This document shows positions 2,876-6,980 of a stretch of DNA of 33,710 nt, in pieces; position 1 is the stretch's first letter; each line of letters starts with the position of its first letter. The stretch is from Ferrithrix thermotolerans DSM 19514. Lineage in GTDB: Bacteria > Actinomycetota > Acidimicrobiia > Acidimicrobiales > Ilumatobacteraceae. The position numbers and the translations under genes were made by a program. The notes below the pieces were generated by a model. The model saw only the letters and a program-made list of their open reading frames with translations. It did not search any database and was not told where the DNA came from. The stretch spans positions 1 to 33,710 of the forward strand of contig CAMASN010000032.1 in NCBI GenBank assembly GCA_945861025.1. The letters are read 5' to 3'.

Positions 2876-2958
2876 GCCCGGGTGGCGGAATGGCAGACGC
2901 GGGGGGCTTAAACCCCCCTCCTTGCAAGAGGGTACGGGTTCGAGTCCCGTCCCGGGCA
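2876..2958 (+). tRNA. tRNA-Leu (anticodon UAA)
   Basis: A full cloverleaf can be drawn: acceptor GCCCGGG (2876-2882) with CCCGGGC (2951-2957) and discriminator A at 2958; an anticodon stem of five G-C pairs with loop CUUAAAC, giving anticodon UAA for codon UUA; a long class II variable arm as expected for Leu; and a T arm ACGGG-TTCGAGT-CCCGT. CCA is not encoded. UUA is very rare in such a high-GC genome, so this tRNA serves few codons. Confidence 0.95.
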
Positions 2959-2991
2959 CGAAGAACCCAGCAGGTACGAGTGGTCGCAGCC

Positions 2992-3250: not shown

Positions 3251-3688
3251 CTACATCTGGGGCGACGCGGTATCGATCGGATTGGCGACGTGAAAGCCCG
3301 ATGTGCTCGCTGCTTCGCACAGGCGGCGATCGGCACTGCTGAATACTCCGGCACCCACGAGGTGCGCCGCGGCGAGATGCGCGGCGTCGTAGCCGCGCAA
3401 ACCGTGCGCCTCGGCCAGATCGCCGGCCAGTCGCATCAGATCCTCGTCGACCTCGACCACGGACAACTGCGACCACAACACCTCGAGGCCCGCAACTGCA
3501 CTGCGAAACACGGTGGTGGTGATGCGACGTTGTCGTCGGGCCGCAGCGAGCGCGGCGCGGGCCTCGACGTGAGCGACCCTGACGGTGACGAGCGTGTCCG
3601 CCTCGTCCCAGATCACCGCGGCCTCCGCGGTGCCGACCTCGTCGATGAGCAACTTGATGAGCGTGGACGTGTCGACGTAGGTGATCAC
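3251..3688 (-). CDS. vapC: VapC-type PIN-domain toxin
   Basis: A 145-residue PIN-domain ribonuclease. The four acidic residues of the metal-binding site are all present: Asp6 (TYVDTSTLIKL), Glu42 (AHVEARAAL), Asp101 (GYDAAHLAAA) and Asp120 (SSADRRLCEAA). VapC toxins cleave tRNA or rRNA when released from their antitoxin. The GTG start at 3688 overlaps the vapB stop (GTGA), which argues for translational coupling. The open frame extends upstream across vapB in another frame, but that extension is not coding. The ligand set is intact, so the toxin should be active. Confidence 0.9.
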   Translation of the reverse strand: MITYVDTSTLIKLLIDEVGTAEAAVIWDEADTLVTVRVAHVEARAALAAARRQRRITTTVFRSAVAGLEVLWSQLSVVEVDEDLMRLAGDLAEAHGLRGYDAAHLAAAHLVGAGVFSSADRRLCEAASTSGFHVANPIDTASPQM

Positions 3689-3969
3689 TTGCGTTGCTCG
3701 GCCACCAATTCGCTGACCGATCCAGATGCGTGCAGTGGCACCGGACGTTGGCGCACCTTCGAGGTCGGAGGTCGAACCAGACCGGCTTCGATTAACGCTG
3801 CGAGTTTGTCCGTCGGCTGATCGGCGATGCCGTTGAGCCGGGCGATGGGTCGACCGCGGTCGGTCACGACGACCTCGACTCCTGCCTCGACCTGATCGAG
3901 GTAGCGGCTGAGGTTGTTCTTGAGGTCGCGAACCCCGACCTCGATCCGTGTCGATGTAGCTACTTTCAT
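3685..3969 (-). CDS. vapB: VapB antitoxin, Phd/YefM type
   Basis: A 94-residue antitoxin. The N-terminal Phd/YefM DNA-binding fold is clear (VGVRDLKNNLSRYLDQVEAG then EVVVTDRGRPIARL, about residues 9-45); the remaining C-terminal tail would wrap the VapC active site. The start is ATG 3969, because a good promoter ends 7 bases upstream and an earlier in-frame GTG at 4005 lies inside the -35 box. It overlaps vapC by 4 bases. Two GTAGCTAC palindromes flank the start, fitting the usual autoregulation by the antitoxin or the complex. Confidence 0.9.
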   Translation of the reverse strand: MKVATSTRIEVGVRDLKNNLSRYLDQVEAGVEVVVTDRGRPIARLNGIADQPTDKLAALIEAGLVRPPTSKVRQRPVPLHASGSVSELVAEQRK

Positions 3970-3987
3970 GTAGCCGAGTGTAGCTAC
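3956..3987. promoter_or_regulatory. paired GTAGCTAC palindromes, likely VapBC operator
   Basis: Two perfect 8-base palindromes GTAGCTAC lie at 3956-3963 and 3980-3987, 24 bases centre to centre, on either side of the vapB ATG (3969-3967). The upstream copy overlaps the -10 box, so occupancy would block transcription. A half-match (TGTAGCC) lies between them. Confidence 0.6.
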
Positions 3988-4005
3988 TTGCCGCTGCGAT
4001 GTCAC
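3977..4005 (-). promoter_or_regulatory. vapBC promoter, leaderless
   Basis: On the minus strand GTGACA (4005-4000) is followed by a 17-base spacer and TACACT (3982-3977), then 7 bases to ATG 3969. The -35 matches five of six and the -10 four of six consensus bases. Transcription would begin at the start codon. Confidence 0.65.
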
Positions 4006-4082
4006 GGGCTGTTCCTTGAATTGTGCTTCCTAGTGCCTTCCCTGGAGCCAATGCAGATGCTGAGCAATTGCCCCGCTACCGC

Positions 4083-5690
4083 TTAGCTGATTCGGAATGC
4101 GCCGCGCATCACCGGGTGGATACGGCAGAAGTAGGTGTACGTGCCGGGTGGCAGATCGGATGGTGTGGACCATGTGACGCGGCCAGCTGTTGGTGGCCCG
4201 GCATCGCCGAGCTGTCCCGAATCGAAGGAGATGTCGGCGTCGGCCAATGGGTAGGCAATGCCGGTGGCTCCCGTGCATGGCGCCTTGCAAGCGGTGATGG
4301 TGTGCCATTCGCCATTTTCGAGCGGTGCATCGACGTTGTTGTAGGTGATGGTGCCGCCGGCTTGAACCGTAGGAATTGGGTCGGCGCGCAACATGTCGCC
4401 TTGGGCGTAGATGAAGTCGGAGATGTCGATCGGCGACGCTGCTGGCTGCGAGGGGAGCTGCGATGCGTCTGCGTACTTATATTTGGTGTCGACGCCGCCG
4501 CCGTGGTTGTCGTTTTCGGCCAAGTGGCCGTGAGTCAACTCGCCGGGGCCATCAACTGCAGTGGTGAACGGATCGGCAGCGGCGAGGGTGTCGGCCGCAT
4601 TGAGCGTGTCGGCCATCCACACGACCATGATGCCCATTGACTCGTACCACGATGCGCGCGAGCTGTCGTAGGTTGCCGTGGTGGACAGCACATCGCCCTT
4701 GCGCACGGCGACGCGCCAGTCTTCGAGCGTGGCGGTCATCGAAACATCCCACGACACGGCGCCTGCGGGTTCGTAGTAGTTGGCGTCAGAGACGAACAGG
4801 TGAGCGGTGTCTGTGGCGCCCGCTTTGGCGTGATCGGCAAGCGCTGTGGCTCCTGCTCGCTGCAACCACAAGTCGGTGTTGAGGCCGCCTGGGTGAAGAT
4901 GGCCGGCAGTGGCCAACAACACGCCATCGCGGTCGACGGTCCATGCGTTCTTGGCTGGATCGGTGCCGTATGGGGCCGTCGCATCGTCGGGATAGGTGTA
5001 GAGGCCATTTTGACCCGAACCCTTTTGCACGTCGAACACCGGATAGATGCTGCCGTTTTGCACGTCGGTCCAGATCGGTCGTGCCGCCACCATGCCTACA
5101 GCTGTTGGGCTGTCGGCCGGAATGAAGTCGAGGTCGTAGGTGACCCACACCTGTTGTTCGTCGGGCCACAAGTTGTGAATCATGTAGTTGAGGGTCCACT
5201 TGTCGGTGGCTTTATAGCTGTAGCCGTAACCCACTGGCAGCGCCATCGTGGTCTTCTCTTCGCCAGCGGCGAAGAAGCGCTCAGGCAGCTTTGCTGTTGA
5301 GTCGCGGGCCGAGCTGTTCAGCCACACGCCATGGTGAAGGTGGATGACATCAACGCCCGGAATGGTGCCGTCGGCCAAGCGCAGATCGGGGGCGATGCGC
5401 ACGATGTAGCCGTCGACGTCGGGCTGTGGAATTTTCTCACGGGTGAACTCGATGTTGTTTTGGCCGGGCTTGATGCTGATCGGCCCGATCTCGAAGTGCA
5501 AACGTGTAGCGCCAGCCTGAACCGGACGACCGGCCACGGTAGACGTGGTGGAGACTTCGCCCACTGGGATGGTGGCGTCCGCGGCCGTGGTGCCAGAAGT
5601 GCCCGCAGAGTTCGACGAGGCGCTGCTGCAGCTCGCGGCTGCGCCAATCAGTACGGCGAGGCCGATTGCTCCAAAACTTCTGGCGTTCAT
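4083..5690 (-). CDS. secreted copper lipoprotein: PHM-like monooxygenase pattern plus C-terminal cupredoxin
   Basis: A 535-residue lipoprotein: signal peptide residues 1-20, lipobox ending at Cys21, then a Ser/Thr-rich linker. The body shows His119-His120 in IHLHHGVW, His172 in MIHNLW, the His264-x-His266 pair in TAGHLHPGG, and Met352 in YESMGIMVVW. This order matches the copper ligands of peptidylglycine hydroxylating monooxygenase (HH and H for one copper, HxH and M for the other). A His-rich loop (387-396) follows. Residues about 430-535 form a cupredoxin, with His463 (EWHTIT), Cys522, His525 and Met528 (FCRIHPVM) as type 1 copper ligands. It would act outside the membrane, possibly oxidising a small substrate. 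The ATG at 5690 has AAGGA just upstream. It is divergent from a DoxX-like gene. The cupredoxin is firm; the PHM relation is inferred. Confidence 0.75.
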   Translation of the reverse strand: MNARSFGAIGLAVLIGAAASCSSASSNSAGTSGTTAADATIPVGEVSTTSTVAGRPVQAGATRLHFEIGPISIKPGQNNIEFTREKIPQPDVDGYIVRIAPDLRLADGTIPGVDVIHLHHGVWLNSSARDSTAKLPERFFAAGEEKTTMALPVGYGYSYKATDKWTLNYMIHNLWPDEQQVWVTYDLDFIPADSPTAVGMVAARPIWTDVQNGSIYPVFDVQKGSGQNGLYTYPDDATAPYGTDPAKNAWTVDRDGVLLATAGHLHPGGLNTDLWLQRAGATALADHAKAGATDTAHLFVSDANYYEPAGAVSWDVSMTATLEDWRVAVRKGDVLSTTATYDSSRASWYESMGIMVVWMADTLNAADTLAAADPFTTAVDGPGELTHGHLAENDNHGGGVDTKYKYADASQLPSQPAASPIDISDFIYAQGDMLRADPIPTVQAGGTITYNNVDAPLENGEWHTITACKAPCTGATGIAYPLADADISFDSGQLGDAGPPTAGRVTWSTPSDLPPGTYTYFCRIHPVMRGAFRIS

Positions 5691-5805
5691 TGGGGTCCTT
5701 TGGTCGAGCGATTACTTGGCAGCCGCCAAGATGCCACGGGAGCTTGTTAACATCAACGCTCAAACGTGGTCTCAACGACCATGCGAACCTACTTGAAGGA
5801 TTCCT

Positions 5806-6153
5806 GTGTTTCTTGCTTGTGCTGTCATCACGTCGCTGCTGTCGTTGGTTCTGCTGGGTTCGGCCGCAGGCAAACTGACCAAACATCCAAAGGTGACCGA
5901 AAACCTTGGTAAGTGTGAGGTGCCATCGAATTGGCACCCGCGCCTTGCGGCAGCCGAAATCGCTGGCGCTGTCGGCATGGTTCTCGGCCTCTGGGTTCCT
6001 GCACTGGGCATCGCCGCAGCCGTTGGCGTGGTGCTGTATTTCGTTGGTGCGGTCATTGCCCATGTGCGCGTGAGCGACAACGAAGTGGCTGCGCCGATCG
6101 TTTTCATCGTGCTTGCTGTGGTCGTCATCGTCTTACGCATCGCCACCCGCTAG
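5806..6153 (+). CDS. DoxX-like small integral membrane protein
   Basis: A 115-residue protein with four predicted membrane helices (about residues 2-22, 46-64, 66-86, 93-112) and the GSAAGKLTKHPKV loop after helix 1 that is typical of the DoxX-like group. Members of this group are linked to quinone or thiol redox at the membrane, but most have no assigned reaction. The GTG start at 5806 is fixed by GAAGGA at 5795-5800. It is divergent from the copper lipoprotein gene across 115 bases, so the two may share regulation. Confidence 0.8.
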   Translation: MFLACAVITSLLSLVLLGSAAGKLTKHPKVTENLGKCEVPSNWHPRLAAAEIAGAVGMVLGLWVPALGIAAAVGVVLYFVGAVIAHVRVSDNEVAAPIVFIVLAVVVIVLRIATR

Positions 6154-6202
6154 GGCAAACACCAGCGTCCGCCGTATCCGCGAGCACGTAAATGCCAAGC
6201 GG

Positions 6203-6208
6203 TACTGT
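6203..6208 (+). promoter_or_regulatory. leaderless -10 box (TACTGT) that favours the GTG start at 6216
   Basis: TACTGT is followed by 7 bases and GTG 6216. An in-frame ATG at 6192 lies upstream of this box and has no ribosome site of its own. The same spacing is seen before many other genes in the window. Confidence 0.45.
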
Positions 6209-6215
6209 CGAAGTT

Positions 6216-6980
6216 GTGACGCAGAGAACGCCGAGCACGGCTCCTACTTCGACGACTGCTGAACCGCAAGTTCATGCGCGGCGCGCTACGCGACACTCGA
6301 CCGCCACGATCCCGAAGCCTCAGGCATCCGACACTGTTGAGACGGCCCCTGAACCGCAGATCAGTAAGCCAGTTGGCGGACAAGGCTCGATTCTGCTGCA
6401 ACATCCGGCGGCCCCTCCGGTAAGCATCACCCACGAGTTCGTCATTACCGGTGAGCCAGCCGAAGCGTTGTGGGACGCGTATCGCGACAACTTCGAACCA
6501 TTGAAGTCACTGGCGATCCTGCGCCATTTCGATTCGCGCGAAGAAGTGTTAGATCAGTTGGCCAACCCGAAGATCCACAAGATTGTCGGCTGGCAAGAGG
6601 GCCGTCCCGTGGGGTTGGCCATGGTCACCAACAGCCTCGAAGATGTCACTGAGATTTCGCCCGAATTCTTGCGAGCGAAGTACCCCGACTATGCAGCTCG
6701 TGATGCCATCTATTGCGGCATGCTCGTCATGGTCAGCCACACGTTGCGTGGCCGCACGCTGTTCGGCCGGTTGTATACCGAGCTGTGGCAGGTGCCAGCG
6801 CTTGAGGCCGGAATCCTCGTGTTCGATGTCTGCGAGTTCAACCGAATGATGTTCGATACCGACGAACTCACCAAGCGCATTGCGAGCTCGTTCCCACGTT
6901 CGGCCGTCGAAGTGCTCGACCGTCAGACGTGGTACGTCGCCGCTCTTCCCGAACCGATTCCGGGTTCACGCCCGGGGTGA
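6216..6980 (+). CDS. GNAT-like acyltransferase-fold protein with disordered N-terminus
   Basis: A 254-residue protein. The first 60 or so residues are Thr/Pro/Ala-rich and look disordered. The rest has the alternating strands and helices of a GNAT fold: EEVLDQLANPKIHKIVGWQEGRPVG resembles the central strands, and GMLVMVSHTLRGRTLFGRLY looks like the acetyl-CoA loop and helix. Substrate and exact family are unknown. GTG 6216 is preferred over ATG 6192 on promoter spacing. The gene meets the convergent GGDEF-EAL gene with a one-base gap (stop 6980 against stop at 6982). Confidence 0.65.
   Translation: MTQRTPSTAPTSTTAEPQVHARRATRHSTATIPKPQASDTVETAPEPQISKPVGGQGSILLQHPAAPPVSITHEFVITGEPAEALWDAYRDNFEPLKSLAILRHFDSREEVLDQLANPKIHKIVGWQEGRPVGLAMVTNSLEDVTEISPEFLRAKYPDYAARDAIYCGMLVMVSHTLRGRTLFGRLYTELWQVPALEAGILVFDVCEFNRMMFDTDELTKRIASSFPRSAVEVLDRQTWYVAALPEPIPGSRPG

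Follow-up and report, generated by a model that had tools for sequence, protein, structure and literature searches.

The DNA analysed here, a stretch of 33,710 nucleotides from Ferrithrix thermotolerans DSM 19514 (assembly GCA_945861025.1, contig CAMASN010000032.1, positions 1 to 33,710 of the forward strand; in its full length referred to as the window), carries on its minus strand a real and complete gene (4083..5690, ATG start, stop codon at 4083-4085) for a protein of 535 amino acids with 52 homologous loci elsewhere. As an anatomical description, a core resembling peptidylglycine hydroxylating monooxygenase (PHM) fused to a cupredoxin is well supported for this protein. An earlier note, made from the sequence of the window, had read the gene as a bacterial PHM-like monooxygenase and lipoprotein with a built-in cupredoxin, and the ten residues which it had named as copper ligands (His119, His120, His172, His264, His266, Met352, His463, Cys522, His525 and Met528) are indeed located at their positions.

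All features of the gene lie on the minus strand. An N-terminal signal peptide with the lipobox AAS-Cys21 (5628..5690) makes the lipoprotein plausible; residues 1-49, with a predicted local distance difference test score (pLDDT) below 50 in the full model, include a disordered stretch after the signal. Lipobox-like N-termini are found by a crude pattern at 25 of the 52 loci, some of them read from doubtful starts, and several other loci, many of them from Thermoleophilia, show by eye a signal peptide that has no lipobox. The core (residues 57-365; 4596..5522), like PHM and dopamine β-hydroxylase (DBH), is predicted to consist of two jelly rolls and contains the pair His119-His120 (5331..5336), which is of the type that binds the electron-entry copper CuH, the triplet Met170-x-His172 (5175..5183) with a putative third CuH ligand and, of the type that binds the oxygen-binding copper CuM, His264-x-His266 in the motif GHLHPGG (4893..4901) and Met352 in ESMGIM (4635..4637). 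At the junction of core and cupredoxin stands a linker motif (G-x-x-T-H-G-x-L-x-E-N-x-x-H-G-G, residues 383-398; 4497..4544), of which L390, E392 and N393 are found in 44/44, H387 in 43/44 and H396 in 40/44 aligned fused proteins, and which may shape a docking surface or provide an extra metal site. The cupredoxin domain (residues 418-535; 4086..4439) carries the type 1 copper ligands His463 (4302..4304) and Cys522-x2-His525-x2-Met528, the latter in a short loop of the amicyanin type (4107..4127). Beside His463 lies the pair Cys468 and Cys472 (4275..4289), possibly a disulfide; with Cys21 and Cys522 these are the only cysteines of the whole protein, the core being free of them.

Conservation and predicted fold

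In a genome collection of 84,980 species, relatives were detected at the 52 loci, 43 of which were aligned with the window protein (alignment A1, 44 rows), while nine near-copies, truncated or broken sequences were left out. The six core and the four cupredoxin ligands are invariant in 44/44 rows, as are His117, Met170, Cys468 and Cys472. Given 44 invariant columns among the 318 of the core, the chance that six preset positions all fall on such columns is P ~5e-6; for four preset positions in the cupredoxin (22 of 118 columns invariant) it is P ~1e-3. Every core ligand covered by the nine omitted sequences is present. The cupredoxin ligands are likewise there in all of these sequences that extend so far but L048, which is interrupted by an in-frame stop and unaligned in this part.

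The 52 loci belong nearly all to Actinomycetota and, where named, to Acidimicrobiia/Acidimicrobiales or Thermoleophilia (Solirubrobacterales, Thermoleophilaceae), with IMCC26256 (L042) and Svornostia abyssi (L071) as named strains. Two loci that hold the fusion gene are labelled Bifidobacterium breve (L041, L064) and one, on a contig of 3.3 kb, Promineifilum (L063); a wrong label or faulty binning is the probable cause. At four loci (L060, L067, L068 and L072) the fused gene occurs in tandem copies. Within the family of the window's own genome, 17 of 150 genomes encode a relative, and a class-wide scan of 247 genomes with the A1 profile, in which at most six candidates per genome were scored, gave matches in 34, with the full-length fused form in 16 genomes, a core-only form, here called unfused, in 14 (both forms in 2) and a cupredoxin only in 6. 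The three matches in the source genome are the window gene, a 73% identical paralogue whose frame extends past the contig end and a fragment of 40 residues.

AlphaFold2 models were obtained for the whole protein (pLDDT 85.1, pTM 0.84) and for the core alone (residues 55-372; pLDDT 91.8, pTM 0.89). With the whole-protein model, Foldseek retrieved PHM as best match (E 5.5e-9) together with DBH (E 2.4e-8), and VIA retrieved DBH (4zel_A, Z 16.8, root mean square deviation (rmsd) 3.4 Å over 253 residues). The core model superposed best on PHM 6ala_A (Z 18.1, rmsd 2.9 Å over 234 residues) and DBH 4zel_A (Z 18.0, rmsd 3.0 Å over 247 residues), followed by 5wja_D, the PHM variant H107A with citrate (Z 16.2, rmsd 4.3 Å), and the remaining PHM entries (Z 13.3-15.2, rmsd 4.7-5.8 Å); the next fold was PNGase F with Z 9.5. 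The two tandem PHM-type jelly rolls on which the original proposal hinged are thus present in the predicted structure. For the C-terminal part, the structural neighbours in VIA were a Nitrosopumilus multicopper oxidase (Z 9.8), a Nitrosopumilus cupredoxin (Z 9.7) and amicyanins (Z 8.3-8.8), and a profile search matched amicyanin at E 5.6e-5, so that the predicted fold and the complete His, Cys, His, Met ligand set bear out the fused cupredoxin of the amicyanin type.

The same models bear on the conformation of the core. The coppers are ~11-14 Å apart in the open form and 4-5 Å apart in the closed form; chain A of DBH is described as closed, with coppers 4-5 Å apart (PMC4846438), and PHM H108A with citrate as closed by a rotation of the subdomains by ~18 degrees, so that a single copper is bound jointly by residues of the two sites (PMC6123673). 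Since 6ala_A and 4zel_A, the two best-fitting chains, are those described as closed, the core model looks closed, and the prediction points to the closed conformers of PHM and DBH instead of the two copper sites about 11 Å apart that the earlier note had anticipated. This resemblance is a lead and no finding on catalysis, because the predicted models carry no copper and because the competent form is the open one according to PMC6123673, whereas PMC4846438 suggests that the closed form is catalytic.

Sequence kinship with copper monooxygenases and SURNod19

PHM was not reached by sequence searches from the window protein or A1; it was reached through the fold search and through a profile of bacterial copper monooxygenase-like proteins of the same class (31 rows, 30 distinct). 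Legumain matches in the PDB sequence search were discarded as chance-like (E 0.08). Profile matches confined to positions below ~150 were disregarded, as rows there started upstream of the true starts. In local hhalign, the fused and unfused families combined gave a score of 48.7 against this profile (E 6e-6, probability 85%), compared with at most 21.8 for 30 column-shuffled templates and 17.1 for the reversed template; the fused set alone gave E 3.9e-5 and the unfused set alone 3.9e-6. An earlier alignment of A1 with three copper monooxygenase-like proteins only had been weak (probability 35%, E 4e-4).

The global alignment to the same profile (E 3e-7, probability 89%) brings the HH and HxH motifs of the two families together and pairs Met352 with the Met of the motif DEMC, so that the CuM-type ligands, invariant in 44/44 fused rows, appear in register with those of the copper monooxygenase-like proteins. 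The third His of the latter (QVH, 30/30 rows), however, aligns on Met170 and not on His172. The proposal that the ligand set mirrors both copper centres of PHM is supported by the alignment for HH, HxH and Met352 and not for His172. Of the 20 aligned unfused proteins, 18 have no His at column 172, and two, L077 and L078, have His at both column 170 and column 172, which looks intermediate. From the alignment, the third CuH ligand seems to have shifted two residues along the strand in the fused clade. A replacement of the third His by Met in the unfused proteins was considered and dropped, His170 being present in 16/20.

By sequence comparison, the named family closest to the core is, rather than PHM, the family SURNod19 (PF07712, stress up-regulated Nod 19), which has its name from plant proteins; this kinship and the unfused relatives had been missed by the earlier note. 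PF07712 matches 13 of the 44 A1 rows weakly (below E 1, best E 5.8e-4). The window protein itself, which has no Pfam match of any kind up to E 10, lies outside the curated cut-off of PF07712 as well as outside the models Cu2_monooxygen and Cu2_monoox_C. Proteins above the SURNod19 cut-off are encoded by 3 of 198 genomes of other Actinomycetota (L076-L078), and with these A1 aligns over the core at E 1.2e-36 in hhalign, in keeping with homology to bona fide members. Among ten Pfam-scanned core-only relatives from the window's class, nine exceed the SURNod19 cut-off and one falls below it; two of the ten also contain Calx-beta domains (L105, L117) and one S-layer domains (L109).

The Pfam SURNod19 model was further used as a probe by scoring single Ala changes in the unfused bacterial protein L103 (wild type 65.7 bits). 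Changes in the HH pair lowered the score to 61.4 and 60.6 bits, in HxH to 60.4 and 60.4 and in the Met to 61.0 (drops of 4.3-5.3), and the change of the first His of HLHH to 64.2 bits, at a cost of 1.5; a control His and a control Met gave 65.8 and 67.3 bits, a gain of 0.1 and 1.6. The SURNod19 model therefore rewards five of the six PHM-type ligands. At two positions in the region of the third ligand the score remained at 65.7 bits, and the probe is uninformative on that ligand because these positions lie just outside the main matched stretch.

Alignment of 20 of the 21 unfused loci (L119, being truncated, was left out) showed HH in 19/19 rows with letters there, and HxH and Met in 20/20. A lack of conservation among homologues, by which the earlier note would have counted its reading refuted, is thus not seen for HH, HxH and Met; the third CuH His is kept throughout the fused family but is missing from some of the unfused proteins. 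In a quick unrooted tree built from the cores, 44 of them fused and 20 unfused, one branch with an SH-aLRT support of 100 splits the two sets, which agrees with one fusion event as well as with one loss event. Around the 21 unfused genes, a motif search over 95 kb gave four matches, three of which are cupredoxin genes by Pfam (L103, L108, L115) and one a GGDEF-like frame; a separate cupredoxin gene therefore adjoins 3 of 21 unfused loci. The same motif in 630 kb flanking the fused loci gave six matches, namely four further fusion copies and two unrelated-looking frames. A domain which is fused in one clade and encoded adjacently in another is a usual sign of a functional pair, although the numbers here are small. 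At L118, an unfused SURNod19-like gene (3692-4864, plus strand) is directly followed by a CopC-CopD gene (4937-6748, plus strand). The unfused proteins of L108, L110, L111, L112, L115, L116 and L120 end in short tails rich in His (GHDHH, for example) that may bind metal.

A second family may also have a built-in redox carrier. Upstream of the core, 20 of the 30 distinct PHM-like proteins of the comparison profile, which belong to another family in the same class, contain a CxxCH motif (L081, 908-2713, minus strand; L082, 1480-3219, minus strand; L123; L125-L141; L121 and L122 are L082 and L081 again). To judge from this motif, the fused carrier is apparently a cytochrome c, in parallel to the cupredoxin; a Pfam check of L081 for a cytochrome gave a match under the cut-off (E 0.008).

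Proposed function and alternative explanations

The protein is probably a secreted, O2-dependent hydroxylase with three copper sites, in which a core of the PHM/DBH type receives its electrons from the cupredoxin. In Acidimicrobiia and Thermoleophilia it would act outside the membrane as a secreted, probably membrane-anchored lipoprotein. The cupredoxin (418-535) would be reduced at its type 1 copper, one electron at a time, by a carrier of the periplasm or the respiratory chain and pass the electrons to CuH, presumably held by His119, His120 and His172 (or Met170), and from there to CuM at His264, His266 and Met352, where with O2 the core would hydroxylate a small or lipid substrate, probably not peptidylglycine. 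PHM and DBH depend on ascorbate; for the ascorbate of the animal enzymes the cupredoxin would stand in. The predicted copper sites rest on the ligand sets and the chemistry on PHM and DBH; copper loading, the direction of electron flow and a monooxygenase activity are inferred.

Unlikely, though deserving to be weighed, is that the protein handles copper or senses redox state, so that PHM fold and cupredoxin bind, store, oxidise or relay copper and nothing is hydroxylated. Such a role would suit the cupredoxin genes beside three unfused relatives and the CopC-CopD gene beside a fourth (L118), the His-rich C-terminal tails of several of them and the bean Nod19 transcripts, which track copper status (PMC3882225). 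The retention of HH, HxH and Met across deep divergence nevertheless speaks against it, and a full His-Cys-His-Met type 1 site is, as a matter of general knowledge, typical of electron transfer and not of storage.

An improbable variant is a different enzyme chemistry: the core would oxidise its substrate, or would reduce a small molecule, for instance nitrite, NO or peroxide, while electrons would flow through the cupredoxin towards the chain or away from it, on the pattern of copper nitrite reductases linked to a redox partner. Among the structural neighbours of the cupredoxin part there are indeed a chain of a nitrite reductase (6hbe) and a multicopper oxidase ending in a cupredoxin domain (9cck), but the core is PHM/DBH-like and no cupredoxin-fold oxidase, and the known copper enzymes of this fold, PHM and DBH, hydroxylate with O2 (for DBH, PMC4846438).

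Very doubtful is a core without catalysis that, as a SURNod19-type domain for binding or for the cell surface, has its His and Met in structural roles: Calx-beta (L105, L117) and S-layer domains (L109) in unfused relatives are typical of surface proteins and the third CuH ligand is variable among these relatives, yet HH, HxH and Met persist in every unfused row with letters there, even in rows that have no third His at all.

That the protein is a genuine peptidylglycine hydroxylase and amidates peptides in bacteria can hardly be expected, even with PHM as the closest solved structures, given a core identity to PHM of 10-12%, the apparent replacement of the peptide-carboxylate anchors of PHM, Arg240, Asn316 and Tyr318, by Ala262, Ile354 and Val356 (placed by their offset from HxH and Met), which makes peptidylglycine an unlikely substrate, and the finding that, ABC-transporter-like frames aside, no neighbour cluster occurs in more than 5 of 53 loci, in a survey that was not aimed at a lyase partner.

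Several observations weigh against the hydroxylase with a built-in electron donor, which we nevertheless prefer. The Pfam PHM families miss the fused proteins, Cu2_monoox_C matching one of 44 rows at E 0.11, and the hhalign probabilities to the PHM-like profile, local and global, are moderate. The PHM-type column of the third CuH His holds Met170, the His standing two residues further on, and this ligand varies among the 20 unfused proteins, with His170 in 16, only His174 in 2 and none of 170, 172 and 174 in 2. One of the two structure papers (PMC6123673) judges the closed form, to which the model is similar, not to be the competent one. The three cupredoxin neighbours of unfused genes come from two lineages only, L108 and L115 representing one genus. 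Finally, no recurrent neighbour that would point to a substrate or a donor was observed within up to 8 kb at 53 loci, surveyed by crude calling of open reading frames that recovered the fusion gene itself in 50/53; the commonest non-self cluster is ABC-transporter-like by sequence (14/53 loci) and the next ones occur in 5/53.

The electron donor suggested by the earlier note, a DoxX-like membrane protein, is encoded divergently (5806..6153, plus strand, 115 amino acids) and is correctly assigned as DoxX_2 (PF13564, E 7.4e-24). It does not stay beside the homologues: such a gene is present in 3 of 53 loci only, in the window and at L024 and L025, and the fusion proteins of these three are at least 98% alike. 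Because it accompanies only the window and two near-identical loci, it provides no evidence on the donor; it was rejected as a conserved electron donor and is probably a neighbour outside the system. Immediately downstream, the fusion gene is followed by a probable toxin-antitoxin pair, a PIN-domain gene (3254-4051, minus strand) with an overlapping frame for an antitoxin of the Phd/YefM type (3688-4005, minus strand), and the sole tRNA found in the window is a tRNA-Leu (anticodon taa; 2876-2959, plus strand).

Plant SURNod19 proteins and comparison with known systems

A wider reading, which we put forward tentatively and consider possible rather than probable, is that SURNod19 constitutes an unrecognised branch of PHM/DBH copper monooxygenases in bacteria and plants. 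The fused clade would then be self-sufficient by means of a cupredoxin wired to the respiratory chain, with a closed geometry of adjacent coppers and a register-shifted CuH, and plant NOD19 would be a copper oxygenase of the cell surface or secretory pathway; the sequences compared here are bacterial, and a prior link of the family to PHM in a Pfam clan or in InterPro is possible. We know of no land-plant copper oxygenase of the cell surface or secretory pathway of this kind. Among the literature matches listed, neither a connection between SURNod19 and copper monooxygenases nor a fusion of PHM with a cupredoxin was found; one paper, PMC5894230, contains both SURNod19 and monooxygenase. According to PMC3882225, the copper-regulated miR398b targets Nod19 in bean, as validated by experiment, and the Nod19 transcripts are down in copper deficiency and up in copper excess except in leaves; in PMC10326430 the function of plant SURNod19 is called elusive and a signal peptide as well as a C-terminal hydrophobic helix are predicted. 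Copper regulation, signal peptide and helix would fit a copper protein of the secretory pathway, and through this bacterial family a copper-enzyme hypothesis for Nod19 becomes testable.

The link to SURNod19 is the more consequential result; it yields a hypothesis in concrete biochemical terms on what this stress-related plant family does. Whether PHM and DBH work in the open or the closed form is answered differently by PMC4846438 and PMC6123673, and a bacterial relative with a tethered electron donor would be open to study without ascorbate.

With PHM and DBH, the window protein shares the fold and the order HH ... H ... HxH ... M, the DBH ligands being His262, His263, His333, His412, His414 and Met487 (PMC4846438). 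It differs from them in an identity of only 10-15% (at the low end in the PHM core superpositions), in the shifted third His and the fused cupredoxin, from PHM in the apparently missing substrate anchors, and from DBH, which has disulfides in both copper domains according to the same paper, in its cysteine-free core. Among the SURNod19-type proteins of this study, none carries a fused cupredoxin. The Acidimicrobiia proteins resembling Cu2_monooxygen and Cu2_monoox_C (L079, L081, L082, L121-L149) belong by profile to the same fold family and are often carrier-fused, but their carrier is N-terminal and cytochrome c-like by motif, in contrast to the C-terminal cupredoxin of the window protein, and they have a His at the QVH column in 30/30 where the fused family has Met170. 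Amicyanin and the Nitrosopumilus cupredoxin, in turn, share with the window protein the cupredoxin fold and the CxxHxxM loop, whereas the window's cupredoxin is joined to a PHM-like core and possesses the invariant pair Cys468/Cys472.

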